32,867 nucleotides of DNA from positions 1 to 32,867 of the forward strand of contig JAQTPE010000004.1 in the NCBI GenBank assembly GCA_028748925.1, read 5' to 3'. Both the position numbers and the translations under genes were made by a program. Positions within the stretch are counted from its first letter, which is position 1. Each line of letters opens with the position of its first letter. Shown here one piece after another: positions 9,477 to 32,784 of this stretch. The stretch is from Candidatus Omnitrophota bacterium (lineage in GTDB: Bacteria; Omnitrophota; Gorgyraeia; 2-01-FULL-45-10). The notes under the pieces were generated by a model. It saw nothing but the letters and a program-made list of their open reading frames with translations. It was not told where the DNA came from and did no database searches.

Positions 9477-9487
9477 GATAACATGGG

Positions 9488-9560
9488 TCTAGAGGATATT
9501 CTCTAGAGGTTGATGCGATGGTCGGGCCGCCATCTGATTTAAAATCGGATAGCGGTTTTT
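9488..9560 (+). promoter_or_regulatory. hflK leader with two hairpins, the second terminator-like
   Basis: TCTAGAG-GATATT-CTCTAGA (9488-9507); CCGCCATCTGAT-ttaaa-ATCGGATAGCGG followed by TTTTT (9527-9560), before the SD agggagg at 9571. Confidence 0.5.
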
Positions 9561-9584
9561 GTGTTTATAGAGGGAGGATGAATT

Positions 9585-10579
9585 ATGCAATGGCAAGATA
9601 CGCCTACGCCCGAAGAAATAATCAATGCCGGCAAAAAAAATTTTCTGAATTCAGCAAGTATTTCATTTGGACGGCGGTAGCTTTGTTTATTATCATGGGC
9701 CTTAAAGGATTAATTTATTCGATAGGTCCGGATGAGGTTGGGGTAATTCAGCGGTTCGGTAAATACATCAGGTTGAATTCGCCCGGATTACACGCGAAGA
9801 TTCCCTTCGGCATAGAGAAAGTCACGCCGATTAAGGTAGAAAAAATATTTAAAGAGGAATTCGGCACAGGAAGAGTGGATTCGCCTTCCAGTATTAATAT
9901 GGGAGAAAACAGAGATGTGTCATTGATGCTTACAGGCGATTTAAATATACTCGATGTGCGCTGGATTGTGCAATACAAGATAAAAGATCCCATAAAGTTC
10001 CTTTTTGTCGTGCGCAATCCGCAGACCATTATACGGGATGTTTCCGAAGTGATTATGCGCCGTCTGGTAGGAGATTACACCGTTGATGAGGTGCTTACAA
10101 TTAAAAGAGAAGAGATAGATCATCTGGCCCAAGTTGAAACACAGAAGATATTAGATGAATATCAAACCGGGGTTCAGGTTGTTACGGTGAAATTACTGGA
10201 TGTAAACCCTCCCGATAAAGTGAAACCCGCCTTTAACGAAGTAAATGAAGCAAAGCAGGAGAAAGAGAAGATGATCAACCAGGCCTGGGAGGCATATAAT
10301 AAGGCTATCCCTAAGGCAAAAGGCGAAGCGGAGCGTACAATTCGCGAAGCGGAAGGATATTCTCTTGACAAAATAAACAGAGCAAAAGGCGAAGCGGAGA
10401 GATTTTTAGCCACTCTAAACGAATATAAAAAAGCGCCGGAGATAACGCAGAAGCGATTATATCTTGAAACATTGAATGAGGTTTTACCTAAGGTAAAAGA
10501 TAAATATATTATTGACCCAAGGCAGTCTTCTATATTGCCGTTATTAGATATAGGGAAGAGAGGGGGCGAGGGACAATGA
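9585..10579 (+). CDS. hflK: HflK, membrane modulator of FtsH (apparent -1 frameshift at 9633-9640)
   Basis: SD agggagg then ATG 9585 reads MQWQDTPTPEEIINAGKK in frame 3. After the A8 run the HflK body (FSEFSKYFIWTAVALF...IGPDEVGVIQRFGKYIRLNSPGLHAKIPFG...) continues in frame 2. The listed start at 9518 is probably not real. Confidence 0.85.
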
Positions 10580-26353: not shown

Positions 26354-26383
26354 TTGACAAGCATAATTGGGGCATGATATAAG
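26354..26383 (+). promoter_or_regulatory. Sigma70-like promoter of the riboswitch-controlled operon
   Basis: TTGACA (26354) - 18 nt - TATAAG (26378), with TATAAT at 26384 as an alternative -10. Confidence 0.6.
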
Positions 26384-26396
26384 TATAATATAATAT

Positions 26397-26485
26397 TGGC
26401 AGGGAATTCGGTGTGAATCCGAGACTGTACCCGCAACTGTATGCAGGCATTGTATGTTGCCTGTGAGTCAGAGTACGAAGACCTC
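26397..26485 (+). ncRNA. Cobalamin riboswitch 1 (short form, atypical 5' side)
   Basis: AGGGAATTCGGTGTGAATCCGAGACTGTACCCGCAACTGTA, hairpin CAGGCA..TGCCTG, then GAGTCAGAGTACGAAGACCT: cobalamin aptamer core. No clear 5' AGGT partner for ACCT. Confidence 0.85.
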
Positions 26486-26528
26486 CGGGAATAGAGGTGC
26501 TGAAATAGTCTTAGGCAATAGATTATTT

Positions 26529-26562
26529 AACTCAATCTCTATAAAAGGGGTTGAGTTTTTTG
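26529..26562 (+). terminator. Rho-independent terminator after riboswitch 1
   Basis: AACTCAATC-TCTATAAAAGG-GGTTGAGTT followed by TTTTG. Confidence 0.85.
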
Positions 26563-26578
26563 TTTTAAGGTACAAATA

Positions 26579-26744
26579 TATACAGGTCCTGCGCGTGCAG
26601 GATGAGAGGGAAGCTTGTGAAGTCAAGCGCGGTCCCGCCGCTGTAACCGGGGACGAAAACCGCAACTGGCCACTGTCTATTATTCATTAGATGGGAAGGC
26701 GCGGTTAGTAGATTGATCCGGAAGCCAGAAGACCTGCCTGTATA
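26579..26744 (+). ncRNA. Cobalamin riboswitch 2 (full length)
   Basis: Closing stem TATACAGG (26579-26586) / CCTGTATA (26737-26744); GAGGGAAGCTTGTGAAGTCAAGCGCGGTCCCGCCGCTGTAACCGGGGAC; GGAAGCCAGAAGACCTGCCTG. Confidence 0.95.
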
Positions 26745-26793
26745 TTGGAGTTGTGTTATTGGACTATGTCTAATAAACGCAGTTTCCTTGCGG

Positions 26794-26858
26794 AAGGATC
26801 AAGCTAAACTGGGAGCAATCCTTAAGTTCTTTTCATAAAAGAGCCTGAGGATTTTTTA
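26794..26858 (+). terminator. Antiterminator/terminator expression platform of riboswitch 2
   Basis: Terminator AATCCTTAAGTTCTTTTCATAAAAGAGCCTGAGGATT + TTTTATT. AAGGAT (26794-26799) can pair with ATCCTT (26818-26823) as antiterminator, and is itself sequestrable by the upstream TTCCTTgcgGAAGGA hairpin. Confidence 0.85.
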
Positions 26859-26898
26859 TTCCGCAGGAAGCGTGGGAATATAAAGGTGGGAACGGTAT

Positions 26899-27174
26899 AT
26901 GCGGGTCAAACCATTAACGGATAAATCGTATCGCAGTATAGTAAAAAGTTATTTTCAAAAAGATTTTTCGTGCGTTAAAGAAGAGATAGCGGTGGTTCTT
27001 GAACATGAACCCGATAGGGACAAGCTATTCAGTATTATTCTGTGCGAGCACTTTAACGAAATAAGAAGGTGCGAAGAGCCCGGTTTAAAAATAACCGCGT
27101 TAAAAAATGTATTGATGGCGTTGGATTATCTTGGAAAAATGTCGCAGGTACAGCGATGGTCGCGAAAAAAATAA
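26899..27174 (+). CDS. Small protein of unknown function (91 aa), first gene after the riboswitches
   Basis: SD aaaggtggg before ATG 26899; ends 13 nt before metE. No recognisable family. Confidence 0.6.
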   Translation: MRVKPLTDKSYRSIVKSYFQKDFSCVKEEIAVVLEHEPDRDKLFSIILCEHFNEIRRCEEPGLKITALKNVLMALDYLGKMSQVQRWSRKK

Positions 27175-27187
27175 GGAGGCGCAGTAT

Positions 27188-29362
27188 ATGAAGACGTATG
27201 CTTATGGATACCCCAGGTTGGGGCCAAATCGTGAATTCAAGACAGCCGTTGAAAAATATTTTTCGGATAAAATAGACGATAAACAGTTAACCCGGGCGCT
27301 TTCGGAAAGGCAGGAGCATATGACATCGATATATGCTTCCACGATCGATCTTTATCCCGCGGGAGAGATATCCCCTTACGATCATTTTCTCGATGAGGCG
27401 TGCGTTCTCGGCTGGGTAAAACCGAAAAATTTTCACGAATATTATGCGTTGACTCGGGGGGAAAAAGCTTTTCCTTTAAAAAAATGGTTTAATACGAATT
27501 ATCATTATCTTACCGTGCCGGTAAAATATCCATCCAATAAAAAAAATACGCTACCGGGATTTCTATCGGATATTAAAGAACCGTCTAAAGAGTTGACGTG
27601 GATGCTGGGGCCTTTAACAATGTCGAAATTAGCGCGTAAAAAAGACGGTTTACACGTTGAGAATATAATAGACGGTTTAACCGATCTTTACAAGTTTCGG
27701 TGTAAGAACCTAAAAACCGTTCATATTGAGGAGCCGGCTTTTGTAATGGACTTGAGCGAAAAAGAACGTCAAGCATCATATCGCTTCTATGAGAAATTAG
27801 GCAAGCTGGTGGACATATGCCTCATTACATATTATGACGATGTTGATCATCTTGAATGTTTATATGATCTGCCGGTCAAGGCCATAGGAATTGATTTTGT
27901 ACATGGAAGAGAGAATATAAAGACGATCGGCAAAAAAGGTTTTCCATCGGATAAGATATTAGTTGCAGGCGTTGTAAGCGGCAAAAACGTCTTTTGCGTA
28001 AATCCTGAGCGAATATTTCCTTTGATAGATATGCTTCGAAAACATTCCAAAGGTCTTATGCTGTCGAACGCAGGGCCGCTTTATCACTTGCCCGAGACTA
28101 CCGCAAACGAGAATCTCCCGCTGGAACTAAAAGAGAGAATACTCTTTGCCGGAGAGAAGATTGCGGAAATAGCGTCTTTAGCAAAAGGCGAGACTCTCTA
28201 TAAAACGAAAGATATGAGAGCGGGGAAGAAACGCAGGCGGAGTAATATAGTTTATAGAGTGAATAGTCTTACGGTAAAAGATTTTAGAAAAAAAGTCTCT
28301 TATAGGAAAAGGATATTACGGCAGAAGATGCTATTGAAACTGCCGGATCTTCCAACCACGACTATAGGAAGTTTTCCGCAGACCAATGAAGTACGCGCTA
28401 TGCGATCATTATTACGGCGAGGAGATATCTCCCGGGAAAAATATCACGGTTACATCCATGGGCGAATCAGAGCGAATATCGTTAAACAGGAGAATCTCGG
28501 CCTCGATGTGTTAGTGCATGGTGAGCCCGAAAGAACGGATATGGTGGAATATTTTGCCGGGAAACTGGAAGGATTTTTCACCAGTGAGCATGGCTGGGTT
28601 GTGTCTTACGGTACGCGCGCATGGCGTCCGCCTATAGTTACCGGAGATATATATCGCGCCGAACCTATGACTGTCGATGATATCTCTTATGCGCAGTCGC
28701 TTACAAAAAGACCTGTAAAAGGGATGCTTACCGGCCCCATCACCATTATGGCATGGAGCTTTGTCAGGGAGGACTTGTCTCCCGAGGAAGTGGCTTATCA
28801 ATTGGCACTGACATTACAGGACGAGATCCGCGATTATGAACGAAAAGGCATACGTATAGTACAGGTTGACGAACCCGCTATCAGGGAGAGAGCTCCCATC
28901 AAGACCAGGGAATGGGGACGATATTTCGATTGGGCGGTTAAAGCTTTTAATCTGGCAACCAATACCTCTCCGGATACGCAGATACATGTTCATATGTGCT
29001 ACTCCGATTTTGCGCAAATAATAAAGTTTATTTTAAAGATGGATTTTGACGTTATTACTATTGAATCGGCCAGGAACGGGTTAGATATGCTTAAGGTATT
29101 CTGTAACGCCGGCTTTTACCGGCAGATTGGATTAGGTGTGTGGGATATCCATTCTCCGCGCGTTCCGGAAGTTAACGATATGAAGATGTTGATAAGAAAG
29201 TGTACCGAAACCCTTGGATTAAAACATGTTTGGGTCAATCCGGATTGTGGGTTAAAAACCAGGGGCTGGAAGGAGGTGAACGCTTCTCTTGCAAATATGG
29301 TTGAGGCTGTAAAGCAGTTTAAGATGGAACAGAACATGAAGGGGGACAGATGCCGCAGGTAG
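27188..29362 (+). CDS. metE: Cobalamin-independent methionine synthase
   Basis: YGYPRLGPNREFK N-terminus; LPTTTIGSFPQTNEVR; zinc-site motifs HVHMCYSDF and NPDCGLKTRGW. ATG 27188 after ataaggaggcgcagtat; the listed start at 27131 overlaps the upstream ORF. Confidence 0.96.
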   Translation: MKTYAYGYPRLGPNREFKTAVEKYFSDKIDDKQLTRALSERQEHMTSIYASTIDLYPAGEISPYDHFLDEACVLGWVKPKNFHEYYALTRGEKAFPLKKWFNTNYHYLTVPVKYPSNKKNTLPGFLSDIKEPSKELTWMLGPLTMSKLARKKDGLHVENIIDGLTDLYKFRCKNLKTVHIEEPAFVMDLSEKERQASYRFYEKLGKLVDICLITYYDDVDHLECLYDLPVKAIGIDFVHGRENIKTIGKKGFPSDKILVAGVVSGKNVFCVNPERIFPLIDMLRKHSKGLMLSNAGPLYHLPETTANENLPLELKERILFAGEKIAEIASLAKGETLYKTKDMRAGKKRRRSNIVYRVNSLTVKDFRKKVSYRKRILRQKMLLKLPDLPTTTIGSFPQTNEVRAMRSLLRRGDISREKYHGYIHGRIRANIVKQENLGLDVLVHGEPERTDMVEYFAGKLEGFFTSEHGWVVSYGTRAWRPPIVTGDIYRAEPMTVDDISYAQSLTKRPVKGMLTGPITIMAWSFVREDLSPEEVAYQLALTLQDEIRDYERKGIRIVQVDEPAIRERAPIKTREWGRYFDWAVKAFNLATNTSPDTQIHVHMCYSDFAQIIKFILKMDFDVITIESARNGLDMLKVFCNAGFYRQIGLGVWDIHSPRVPEVNDMKMLIRKCTETLGLKHVWVNPDCGLKTRGWKEVNASLANMVEAVKQFKMEQNMKGDRCRR

Positions 29363-30102
29363 AATTGTGTGTAGAGATGTTGGATTTTTCACAAAACGCT
29401 TTGGCTATAATCTATGCCGCCTGCCGGCAATGTTATTCGGGGAGTTTTGCTGGACAGATATTTGCCGAAGGACTTAAAGATCGGGTAAAACAGGAAGAAT
29501 TTGTCAGGCAGGTTGTCTCTTCAGGGCACGAAAGCCCTCTTGAGCATGTAAAATTTACTTTTGCCATCAAAGGCGTGTCGAGAGCGCTTACACATCAGCT
29601 TGTGAGGCACAGGGTTGCCTCATATTCACAACAGAGCCAACGATATGTTAAGGAGACCGCTTTTAATTATATTATTCCACCCTCTATAGAAAATGATGAG
29701 GATGTGAAAAAGGAATATCTATGTATTATGCGAAGGATACAGGATAGCTACAACGTTCTGCTGAGGCTATTTAAGAAGAAAGGCAAAAAGGGCGAGATTG
29801 CGAACCAGGATGCGCGTTTTGTCCTGCCTCAGGCGGTAGAGACAAAGATAGTGGTGACGATGAATTGCAGGGAGCTAAAACATTTCTTTGAGGAACGTTG
29901 CTGTGCCCGCGCGCAGTGGGAAATCAGAAGACTTGCCGAAGAGATGATAAGGATATGCAGGAAAGAGTTACCCGCCGTGTTTGATAAGTCCGGAGCGAAA
30001 TGTATTAAGCTGGGATATTGTCCGGAAGGCGCAAAATTCACATGCGGGAAATATCCGTTAAAAGAAGAAGTTTTTGGAGGTAAATATGCCGATGCTTGTT
30101 GA
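29350..30102 (+). CDS. thyX: Flavin-dependent thymidylate synthase
   Basis: RHRVASYSQQSQRYV (ThyX motif) and HESPLEHVKFTF. Confidence 0.96.
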   Translation: MPQVELCVEMLDFSQNALAIIYAACRQCYSGSFAGQIFAEGLKDRVKQEEFVRQVVSSGHESPLEHVKFTFAIKGVSRALTHQLVRHRVASYSQQSQRYVKETAFNYIIPPSIENDEDVKKEYLCIMRRIQDSYNVLLRLFKKKGKKGEIANQDARFVLPQAVETKIVVTMNCRELKHFFEERCCARAQWEIRRLAEEMIRICRKELPAVFDKSGAKCIKLGYCPEGAKFTCGKYPLKEEVFGGKYADAC

Positions 30103-32194
30103 AAATATGTTTAAAAAAATAGTAAAAAGAGATGGTTCTGAAGAGGAATTTGATTCCAGGAAAATCGTAAATGCTATAAGTAAGGCGGGAATAGCGGCTG
30201 GAGAATTCGGCATTGATACTGCCGAAAAATTGGCCGACAAGGTGTTAAATATAACGTTACAATTTATCGTTAACGGTTATCCTTCAGTCGAAATGATACA
30301 GGATATAGTAGAAGAAGTGCTCATAACATCTCCGTATAAAAGAACTGCCAGGGCATTTATTCTATATAAAACTGAACATGCCAGTATAAGGGAAGTCACA
30401 TCGAAGTTCAACGTTAACCTTGTGGATCAATATATAAACAATATGGATTGGCAGGTAAGGGAGAATAGCAACATGGGGTTCTCCCTGCAGGGGCTTAACA
30501 ATTATCTATCTTCGGAAGTCAGCAAGATATACTGGCTCAATAAGATATATACAGGTAATATCAAGGAAGCTCATTTAAGCGGGGATTTTCACATTCATGA
30601 TCTGGGTATTTTGAGCGCATATTGCGTCGGATGGGATTTACAGGACTTGCTTCTTACGGGTTTTAGGGGAGTGAGGGGTAAATCCGAAGCGAAACCGGCA
30701 AAACACCTGCGAACTGCGCTAGGACAAATAGTGAATTTCTTTTATACGCTCCAAGGCGAAGCGGCAGGCGCGCAGGCCTTTTCGAATTTTGATACGTTGT
30801 TGGCGCCTTTTATATATTACGACAACCTGGATTACAAAGCCGTAAAACAGGCGCTTCAGGAATTCCTTTTTAATGTAAATGTTCCTACGCGCGTAGGTTT
30901 TCAAACGCCTTTCACGAATATAACCTTAGACCTAACGGTTCCCTCGTATTTTAACGATCAGGGCGTAATCATAGGCGGCGAAGCGCAATCCAGAACGTAT
31001 AAAGAGTTTAAAAAGGAAATGGATATATTTAACAGGGCATTTCTAGAGGTAATGCTGGAAGGCGACGCCAAGGGGAGAGTATTCACCTTTCCAATCCCAA
31101 CCTACAATATATCAAAAGATTTTGATTGGGATAATCCGAACCTGTCTTTATTGTGGGATGTAACGGCCAAGTACGGGATACCTTATTTCGCGAATTTTGT
31201 TAATTCCGATATGAATCCGGAAGACGCCCGCAGTATGTGCTGCCGTCTGCGTATAGATAACCGTGAACTTCGCAGGCGCGGCGGAGGACTATTTGGCTCA
31301 TCGCCGTTGACAGGTTCAATAGGCGTAGTGACTATAAATATGCCACGACTTGGGTATCTATCAAAAAGCGAAGATGAATTTTTTACCCGGTTGGACAAAC
31401 TTATGCGAATGGCTAAAGCCAGCCTCAGGATTAAAAGGAAGGTGTTGGAGCAGTTAACCGCGAACGACCTCTATCCTTATGTTAAATTTTATCTTAGAAA
31501 TGTCCATCAGCGTTTCGGCGAATATTGGAAGAACCATTTTTCCACTATAGGCCTTACCGGCATGAATGAATCGTGCTTAAATTTTTTACGTGAAGATATC
31601 GGTTCGGATCATGGCAGAGAGTTCGCTTTAAAAGTTATGGATTTCATGAGAAATAAGCTTGTCGAATTTCAAAAAGAGACCGGCGATAACTATAATCTTG
31701 AAGCGACGCCTGCCGAAGGCACCTCTTACAGGTTAGCCAGGCTTGACAAAGAAAGGTATCCAAATATTATAGATGCTAATAAACTTAAAACAGCTTGCAA
31801 GAAACCGCACTTTTATACGAACTCAACCCAGCTTCCCGTGGATTACACCGATGATATCTTTAAAATGCTGGATCTTCAGGACGATCTCCAGGCAAAATAT
31901 ACGGGAGGCACGGTTCAACATCTCTTTATCGGCGAAAGGATAAGCGATATAGGCGCGCTAAAGAGCCTCATTAAAAAGATATGTGTAAAATTTCACCTGC
32001 CGTATTTTTCAATTACACCTACTTTCAGTGTTTGTCCCTCGTGTGGTTATATGGCGGGCGAAGTGCATATATGTCCTGCCTGTAAAAGTACATGTGAAGT
32101 ATATTCAAGGATCGTGGGGTATTTACGGCCGGTAGTTCAGTGGAATGACGGCAAACAGGCAGAATTCAGCATGAGGAAAACGGCAAAAATATGA
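30086..32194 (+). CDS. nrdD: Anaerobic (class III) ribonucleoside-triphosphate reductase
   Basis: N-terminal ATP-cone (IVKRDGSEEEFDSRKIVNAISKA); GDFHIHDL; C-terminal Zn site CPSCG..CPACKSTC and glycyl-radical region RIVGYLRPVVQWNDGK. Confidence 0.96.
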   Translation: MPMLVENMFKKIVKRDGSEEEFDSRKIVNAISKAGIAAGEFGIDTAEKLADKVLNITLQFIVNGYPSVEMIQDIVEEVLITSPYKRTARAFILYKTEHASIREVTSKFNVNLVDQYINNMDWQVRENSNMGFSLQGLNNYLSSEVSKIYWLNKIYTGNIKEAHLSGDFHIHDLGILSAYCVGWDLQDLLLTGFRGVRGKSEAKPAKHLRTALGQIVNFFYTLQGEAAGAQAFSNFDTLLAPFIYYDNLDYKAVKQALQEFLFNVNVPTRVGFQTPFTNITLDLTVPSYFNDQGVIIGGEAQSRTYKEFKKEMDIFNRAFLEVMLEGDAKGRVFTFPIPTYNISKDFDWDNPNLSLLWDVTAKYGIPYFANFVNSDMNPEDARSMCCRLRIDNRELRRRGGGLFGSSPLTGSIGVVTINMPRLGYLSKSEDEFFTRLDKLMRMAKASLRIKRKVLEQLTANDLYPYVKFYLRNVHQRFGEYWKNHFSTIGLTGMNESCLNFLREDIGSDHGREFALKVMDFMRNKLVEFQKETGDNYNLEATPAEGTSYRLARLDKERYPNIIDANKLKTACKKPHFYTNSTQLPVDYTDDIFKMLDLQDDLQAKYTGGTVQHLFIGERISDIGALKSLIKKICVKFHLPYFSITPTFSVCPSCGYMAGEVHICPACKSTCEVYSRIVGYLRPVVQWNDGKQAEFSMRKTAKI

Positions 32195-32784
32195 AAATAG
32201 GAGGTTTGCGGAAACTTTCGCTCATAGACTATCCGGGGAAGACGTGCGCGGTGATATTTACCCAGGGATGTAATTTCCGGTGTCAATATTGCCATAATCC
32301 GGAGCTTGTATATCCTGAACGCTTTTCCGAGCCGATTCCCTTTGAGCGTATGCGCGAATTTCTCAAAGGGAAAAGGGGCCTTTTAGACGGCATAGTTTTT
32401 TCCGGGGGAGAGCCGACTATGCAGGAGGATCTTATCGAGAAGATCCTCGAAGTTCGTTCTCTTGGGTATGCCGTTAAGCTTGACACAAACGGAAGCAATC
32501 CGAAGATTTTATCAAAGGTATTACCTTATTTTGATTATGTCGCCATGGACGTTAAGGCCCCTATGGGAAATGATTATGCTAATGTATGCGGTGTGCCGAT
32601 TGACGATTATGCCATACGTTTGAGCATTATTTTAATAAAGGCATCGGGAATTCAACATGAGTTTAGAACAACATTTGCTAGAAATTTATTAGAAAATGCA
32701 GACATTGTAAAGATTAAGAGTTTGATCGGCGGATCAAAATTTAATTTACAAGACTGTTTAGGTTCAAGCAATGTCCACCTATAA
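32191..32784 (+). CDS. nrdG: Anaerobic RNR activating protein (radical SAM)
   Basis: TQGCNFRCQYCHNPE (CxxxCxxC), FSGGEPTMQ; ATGA overlap with nrdD. Confidence 0.93.
   Translation: MKIGGLRKLSLIDYPGKTCAVIFTQGCNFRCQYCHNPELVYPERFSEPIPFERMREFLKGKRGLLDGIVFSGGEPTMQEDLIEKILEVRSLGYAVKLDTNGSNPKILSKVLPYFDYVAMDVKAPMGNDYANVCGVPIDDYAIRLSIILIKASGIQHEFRTTFARNLLENADIVKIKSLIGGSKFNLQDCLGSSNVHL

Follow-up and report, generated by a model that had tools for sequence, protein, structure and literature searches.

A candidate B12-repressed operon joining metE, thyX and nrdDG behind two dissimilar cobalamin riboswitches in an Omnitrophota bacterium

Does a single vitamin signal control the synthesis of methionine, thymidylate and deoxyribonucleotides as one unit? 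This question is raised by a locus near the end of the window analysed here, a stretch of 32,867 nucleotides that corresponds to the whole of contig C4 of an Omnitrophota draft genome (G000). A sequence-only reading of this locus described two cobalamin aptamers and their terminators ahead of a packed gene set, and proposed that all B12-independent back-ups for methionine and DNA precursor synthesis are repressed together when B12 is present.

Gene content of the operon

The genes are tightly packed and all lie on the + strand. A 91-aa ORF (26899..27174) is followed by metE (27188..29362), which encodes a full-length cobalamin-independent methionine synthase (PF01717, PF08267; NF003556, 788 bits), and by thyX (29350..30102), which encodes a flavin-dependent thymidylate synthase (TIGR02170, 198.9 bits; motif RHRVASYSQQSQR). 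These are followed by nrdD (30086..32194), a class III ribonucleotide reductase (NF006126, 1063 bits) with the RIVGY glycyl-radical site and CxxC pairs, and nrdG (32191..32784), the NrdD activase (TIGR02495, 191 bits; CNFRCQYC). The catalytic motifs are intact. The 91-aa ORF ends 13 nt before metE, and the following frames overlap by 13 nt (metE/thyX), 17 nt (thyX/nrdD) and 4 nt (nrdD/nrdG). The overlaps from metE through nrdG argue for a single transcript. Three promoter-like matches on the + strand inside nrdD (10 or 11 of 12 bases) count against joint control, and because the window is the whole contig, the 3′ boundary of the operon lies out of view.

The 91-aa ORF had no family in Pfam, NCBIfam or PHROG and no tblastn match in the loci of relatives that were compared, and it was not found in their clusters. 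Matches to PDB entries were disregarded, as they reached an E-value of 0.09.

Two cobalamin switches in the leader

The packed set is indeed preceded by two cobalamin aptamers, both above the Rfam gathering cut-off of RF00174 (31.5 bits), and each followed by an intrinsic terminator. The first is compact (26357..26504, +; core about 26396-26480) and scored 34.9 bits (E-value of 1.9e-5); RF00174 is its best match within the clan. With regard to a Cbl-II/AqCbl subclass, the indications are mixed: within the peripheral domain its alignment passes over 52 model positions, and this large domain is absent, while the junction after P6 (GAGUCAGA) is canonical-like. Neither P1 nor P2 is evident, and the 5′ strand of P13 runs into the stretch expected to form the 3′ strand of P3. 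Homologous copies in genomes of two further families scored just under the cut-off (G088, 29.6 bits; G153, 28.6 bits) and cover model positions 47-167 only.

A putative promoter, TTGACA-18 nt-TATAAG (26354..26383, +), was placed by alignment of the three leaders and by reading of the sequence; the leaders of G088 and G153 share its -35 block TTGACAAGC. We infer that the TTGACA box at 26354 may be the promoter of the operon. If so, the RNA would start only slightly ahead of P3, by a few bases, and P1 and P2 would not fit in.

Downstream of the compact aptamer lies a P13 hairpin (26482..26497, +) that is invariant in the three leaders, and its loop CGGG is complementary to the CCCG of L5 (26430-26433). 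RNAfold placed a predicted antiterminator (26491..26542, +), in which AUAGAGGU (26491-26498) pairs with AUCUCUAU (26535-26542), when the 3′ strand of the terminator was absent. Terminator 1 (26529..26557, +) forms a hairpin of -13.6 kcal/mol.

The second aptamer (26567..26755, +) is a canonical full-length element of the Cbl-I type, which matched RF00174 over model positions 1-189 with 109.8 bits (E-value of 6.9e-27); its homologue in G088 scored 104.7 bits. The P13 of this switch (UCCU-UGCGGA-AGGA) and its predicted antiterminator (26785..26823, +) were folded by RNAfold, with AAGGAU (26794-26799) pairing to AUCCUU (26818-26823), and the same elements are found in G088. Terminator 2 spans about 26817..26853 (+). 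Both terminators fold far better than shuffled sequences (z -6.0 and z -4.1 for terminators 1 and 2, respectively).

The two switches share a layout. In both, the 5′ strand of the terminator finds its complement in the 3′ strand of a P13-like hairpin, and the P13 loop is complementary to L5, a complementarity that in switch 2 was read from the sequence. Based on these complementary strands and terminators, repression by transcription termination is the best reading of both, and is thus our prediction.

Conservation of the first switch was followed through the leaders of G000, G088 and G153. The aptamer and terminator 1 displayed 86% mean column identity across these three families, with invariant core positions. 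In this set of three sequences, the aptamer helices, P13 and kissing loop had 98.6% of their cells paired, and in two pairs both partners had changed; for terminator 1 with its upstream hairpin the share was 98.4%, and both partners had changed in one pair. In 55 and 158 of 500 trials, shuffled controls reached as much covariation as this; the helix data thus amount to consistency and not to proof. All 17 pairs of antiterminator 1 formed in 3/3 sequences (100%) with zero variation; as invariant pairs, they lend no covariation support.

B12-dependent counterparts in the genome

The logic of a back-up requires a B12-dependent enzyme to be backed up. For the ribonucleotide reductase this enzyme is present: NrdJ is encoded at C6:4906-6576 (750.8 bits), in agreement with the proposal that NrdDG stands in for it. 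The same cannot be said of methionine synthase. Searches with the domains PF02965, PF02574 and PF02607 found no MetH in this 1.58-Mb draft (158 contigs), an absence that should be read in light of its completeness of 92%, and 19 further genomes from its family likewise yielded no PF02607 frame of MetH length. Since no MetH was found, the claim that MetE replaces it is unsupported here. The wider claim that all B12-independent back-ups are repressed together also goes beyond the findings; what stands is one operon behind two riboswitches of predicted repressing type. The only PF02607 match in the genome is a stand-alone corrinoid protein of 212 aa (L008:3805-4443). It adjoins a DUF1015 gene, and the family has further stand-alone PF02607 frames that are close to it in length.

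ThyX does lie inside the operon, as the sequence-only reading stressed. No isozyme of ThyX that depends on B12 is known, so to describe it as a back-up for B12 goes a step beyond the gene content. Elsewhere, the genome encodes a ThyA-like protein, which matched a model of archaeal-type thymidylate synthase below the cut-off of that model. As for B12 uptake, a third cobalamin riboswitch of the genome lies upstream of a TonB receptor that partly resembles BtuB.

Occurrence of the arrangement among relatives

Similar MetE proteins were found in 42 of 386 genomes of the phylum, and the gene order is conserved in part. The closest counterpart is G088, where a homologous tandem leader precedes metE, thyX, a 360-aa ORF that matched no Pfam family, nrdD and nrdG; thyX, this ORF and nrdD have overlapping frames. 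This genome encodes a BtuR-type adenosyltransferase and has another cobalamin switch near a receptor-like frame, and yet neither NrdJ nor a B12-binding_2 match was found in it, which counts against the isozyme logic in the very genome where the operon is best conserved. On its contig C14, thyX also follows another metE frame (L145:10-2091), which is shorter than the tandem-led copy and differs from it.

Meanwhile, G153 displays only the compact first switch, followed by metE, nrdD and nrdG. This genome encodes NrdJ as well as a MetH that contains the homocysteine, pterin and B12 domains, and is the cleanest case for the isozyme logic. Because the compact aptamer occurs alone in G153 and the two aptamers differ in architecture, a simple duplication was rejected as the main reading of the tandem leader.

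Other genomes displayed related combinations. In G261, a cobalamin switch leads to a TonB receptor, nrdD and nrdG; the NrdG of this genome (L083:6604-8580) has 658 aa, with internal Intein_splicing and LAGLIDADG matches. In G140, a switch-led btuF-like/cob cluster lies upstream of a TonB receptor and exbB/exbD/tonB-like genes, after which come metE, nrdD and nrdG. A cobalamin-type match of 27.9 bits, under the cut-off, precedes metE in G202 and represents a compact switch with the junction GAGUCCGAAUACC, and a match to RF01482 precedes metE in G232.

Pairs of metE and thyX occur in G136, G165, G037, G195 and G350. No cobalamin switch was found in G136, G165 or G037, so this linkage also occurs in genomes where none was detected. 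In G195, a cobalamin switch lies 3′ of thyX and leads to another receptor-like frame. Among named genomes, the closest ThyX is 77% identical and belongs to a Candidatus Omnitrophota bacterium. In the Omnitrophota isolate STC_70, the thyX closest to that of the window adjoins a CobQ-like gene (L085:719-3096).

Proposed mechanism and alternative readings

Based on these findings, we postulate that this is probably a B12-repressed operon in which two serial cobalamin switches jointly control metE, thyX, nrdD and nrdG. The genes, aptamers, terminators, complementary strands, partial conservation and NrdJ are seen directly; the promoter, the ligand, the direction and strength of control, and the roles of the enzymes are proposed. 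The proposed direction is based on the P13, antiterminator and terminator strands, which are laid out as in the metE corrinoid riboswitch of P. megaterium, whose layout was shown by mutagenesis to be repressing (PMC10653944).

Transcription would start just 5′ of the compact switch. Upon ligand binding, L5 would kiss L13 and stabilise P13, whose 3′ strand would then be withheld from the antiterminator, allowing the terminator to form. RNA polymerase would reach the genes only when both switches are empty. Under scarce corrinoid, MetE, ThyX, NrdD and NrdG would thus be made together. NrdDG would cover for the B12-dependent NrdJ, while MetE would supply methionine; in G153 and similar relatives its counterpart would be MetH, and here none was found. 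ThyX, carried on the same transcript, may supply dTMP alongside NrdD.

Why two switches should be placed in series has more than one answer. We lean towards a pseudo-cooperative doublet, in which the same form of cobalamin is sensed twice and the serial terminators sharpen the response and cut leakage. Each switch here has its own terminator, and 26 AdoCbl doublets with separate expression platforms have been reported (PMC9481103), but this reading leaves unexplained why the two aptamers have retained their difference in architecture in both G000 and G088.

A separate matter is whether thyX belongs to the regulon in any meaningful sense. It might be a passenger, brought in through its linkage to metE and placed under B12 control without adaptive meaning. 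The metE-thyX pairs of G136, G165 and G037, genomes in which no switch was found, and the presence of a ThyA-like protein outside the operon speak for this possibility, which we take seriously while leaning slightly against it, given that thyX is present in both tandem-led operons (G000 and G088) and that the close thyX of STC_70 adjoins a CobQ-like gene.

The retained difference between the aptamers would be accounted for if they bound different forms of cobalamin (for example, methyl- or aquocobalamin versus adenosylcobalamin), with either form shutting the operon as in a NOR gate. The aptamers are structurally unlike, with 52 peripheral-domain model positions skipped in the first, and this difference is kept in G088. 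AqCbl switches are among the classes not seen in tandem in a 2022 survey, so a mixed-form pair would be unreported there (PMC9481103). However, the GAGUCAGA found after P6 in the first aptamer is canonical-like and differs from the junction of the compact switch before metE in G202 (GAGUCCGAAUACC), and we regard two ligand forms as a rather doubtful explanation. The full combination, in which a gate for cofactor forms acts jointly on methionine, thymidylate and deoxyribonucleotide synthesis and ThyX is a true member of the B12 regulon, is unlikely. That the first aptamer is a decayed relic, leaving regulation to the second alone, would fit its low score (34.9 bits), the lack of evident P1/P2 and the conflict between P3 and P13, but is very improbable given its 86% mean column identity, together with the terminator, in three families, its invariant core, and its place as the only switch seen before metE in G153.

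Relation to known systems

Parts of this arrangement are known, namely B12-off control of metE, B12-off control of nrdDG, and tandem AdoCbl switches. The metE gene is a well-known case of control by B12 riboswitches (PMC2211319). The P. megaterium metE riboswitch resembles the switches predicted here in its kissing loop, its P13, the competition of antiterminator and terminator, and its target (PMC10653944); in that organism a cobalamin and a SAM switch stand in tandem before metE (PMC9600662), whereas here two cobalamin switches precede an operon that spans several pathways.

For the delta-proteobacteria Desulfovibrio vulgaris and Desulfuromonas, control of nrdDG by a B12 element has been proposed (PMC545781). 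These systems are alike in having the element before NrdDG, NrdJ in the genome and a proposed repression by B12, but the control was described for nrdDG, while here metE, thyX and nrdDG would share one transcript and two switches. AdoCbl doublets and SAM-I/AdoCbl NOR gates before metE have been catalogued, with AqCbl listed as not in tandem (PMC9481103). Those tandems, like the one proposed here, consist of serial OFF switches with separate terminators; unlike the SAM-I/AdoCbl gate, both inputs here are of cobalamin type, and the two aptamers differ in architecture, a comparison drawn with the reported doublets as a group.

What looks new is that metE and nrdDG are joined to thyX in a single operon behind a pair of unlike aptamers. 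No report of B12 control of thyX surfaced in the open-access literature, as judged by titles and the beginnings of abstracts among the matches listed. If the proposed model is true, one vitamin signal would switch methionine, deoxyribonucleotide and thymidylate synthesis as a unit, and one may ask why ThyX should be tied to B12 status. With this system, the idea that dissimilar cobalamin aptamers in series respond to different forms of the cofactor can also be tested directly.

Origin of the operon and other features of the window

Misbinning of the contig is not favoured: outside the operon, the tetranucleotide composition of C4 correlated with that of other contigs of the genome at r 0.89-0.90 (comparison values were 0.88 for C98 and 0.95 for C68). 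The operon itself is lower both in r (0.834) and in G+C content (0.426). A search of 25 further genomes from the family gave no MetE, and the window's thyX groups with those of G140 and G088 (support 0.87); the metE tree was left out of use, as the support for the window's placement was only 0.22. Transfer of the operon from a relative is possible.

Elsewhere in the window, an nhaA-I RNA (RF03057, 51 bits) lies at 9485-9535 (+) and overlaps the start of an ORF at 9518-10579. Downstream of this RNA are encoded two Band-7 genes, an MscS-type channel, a CBS protein and a sodium/proton exchanger.
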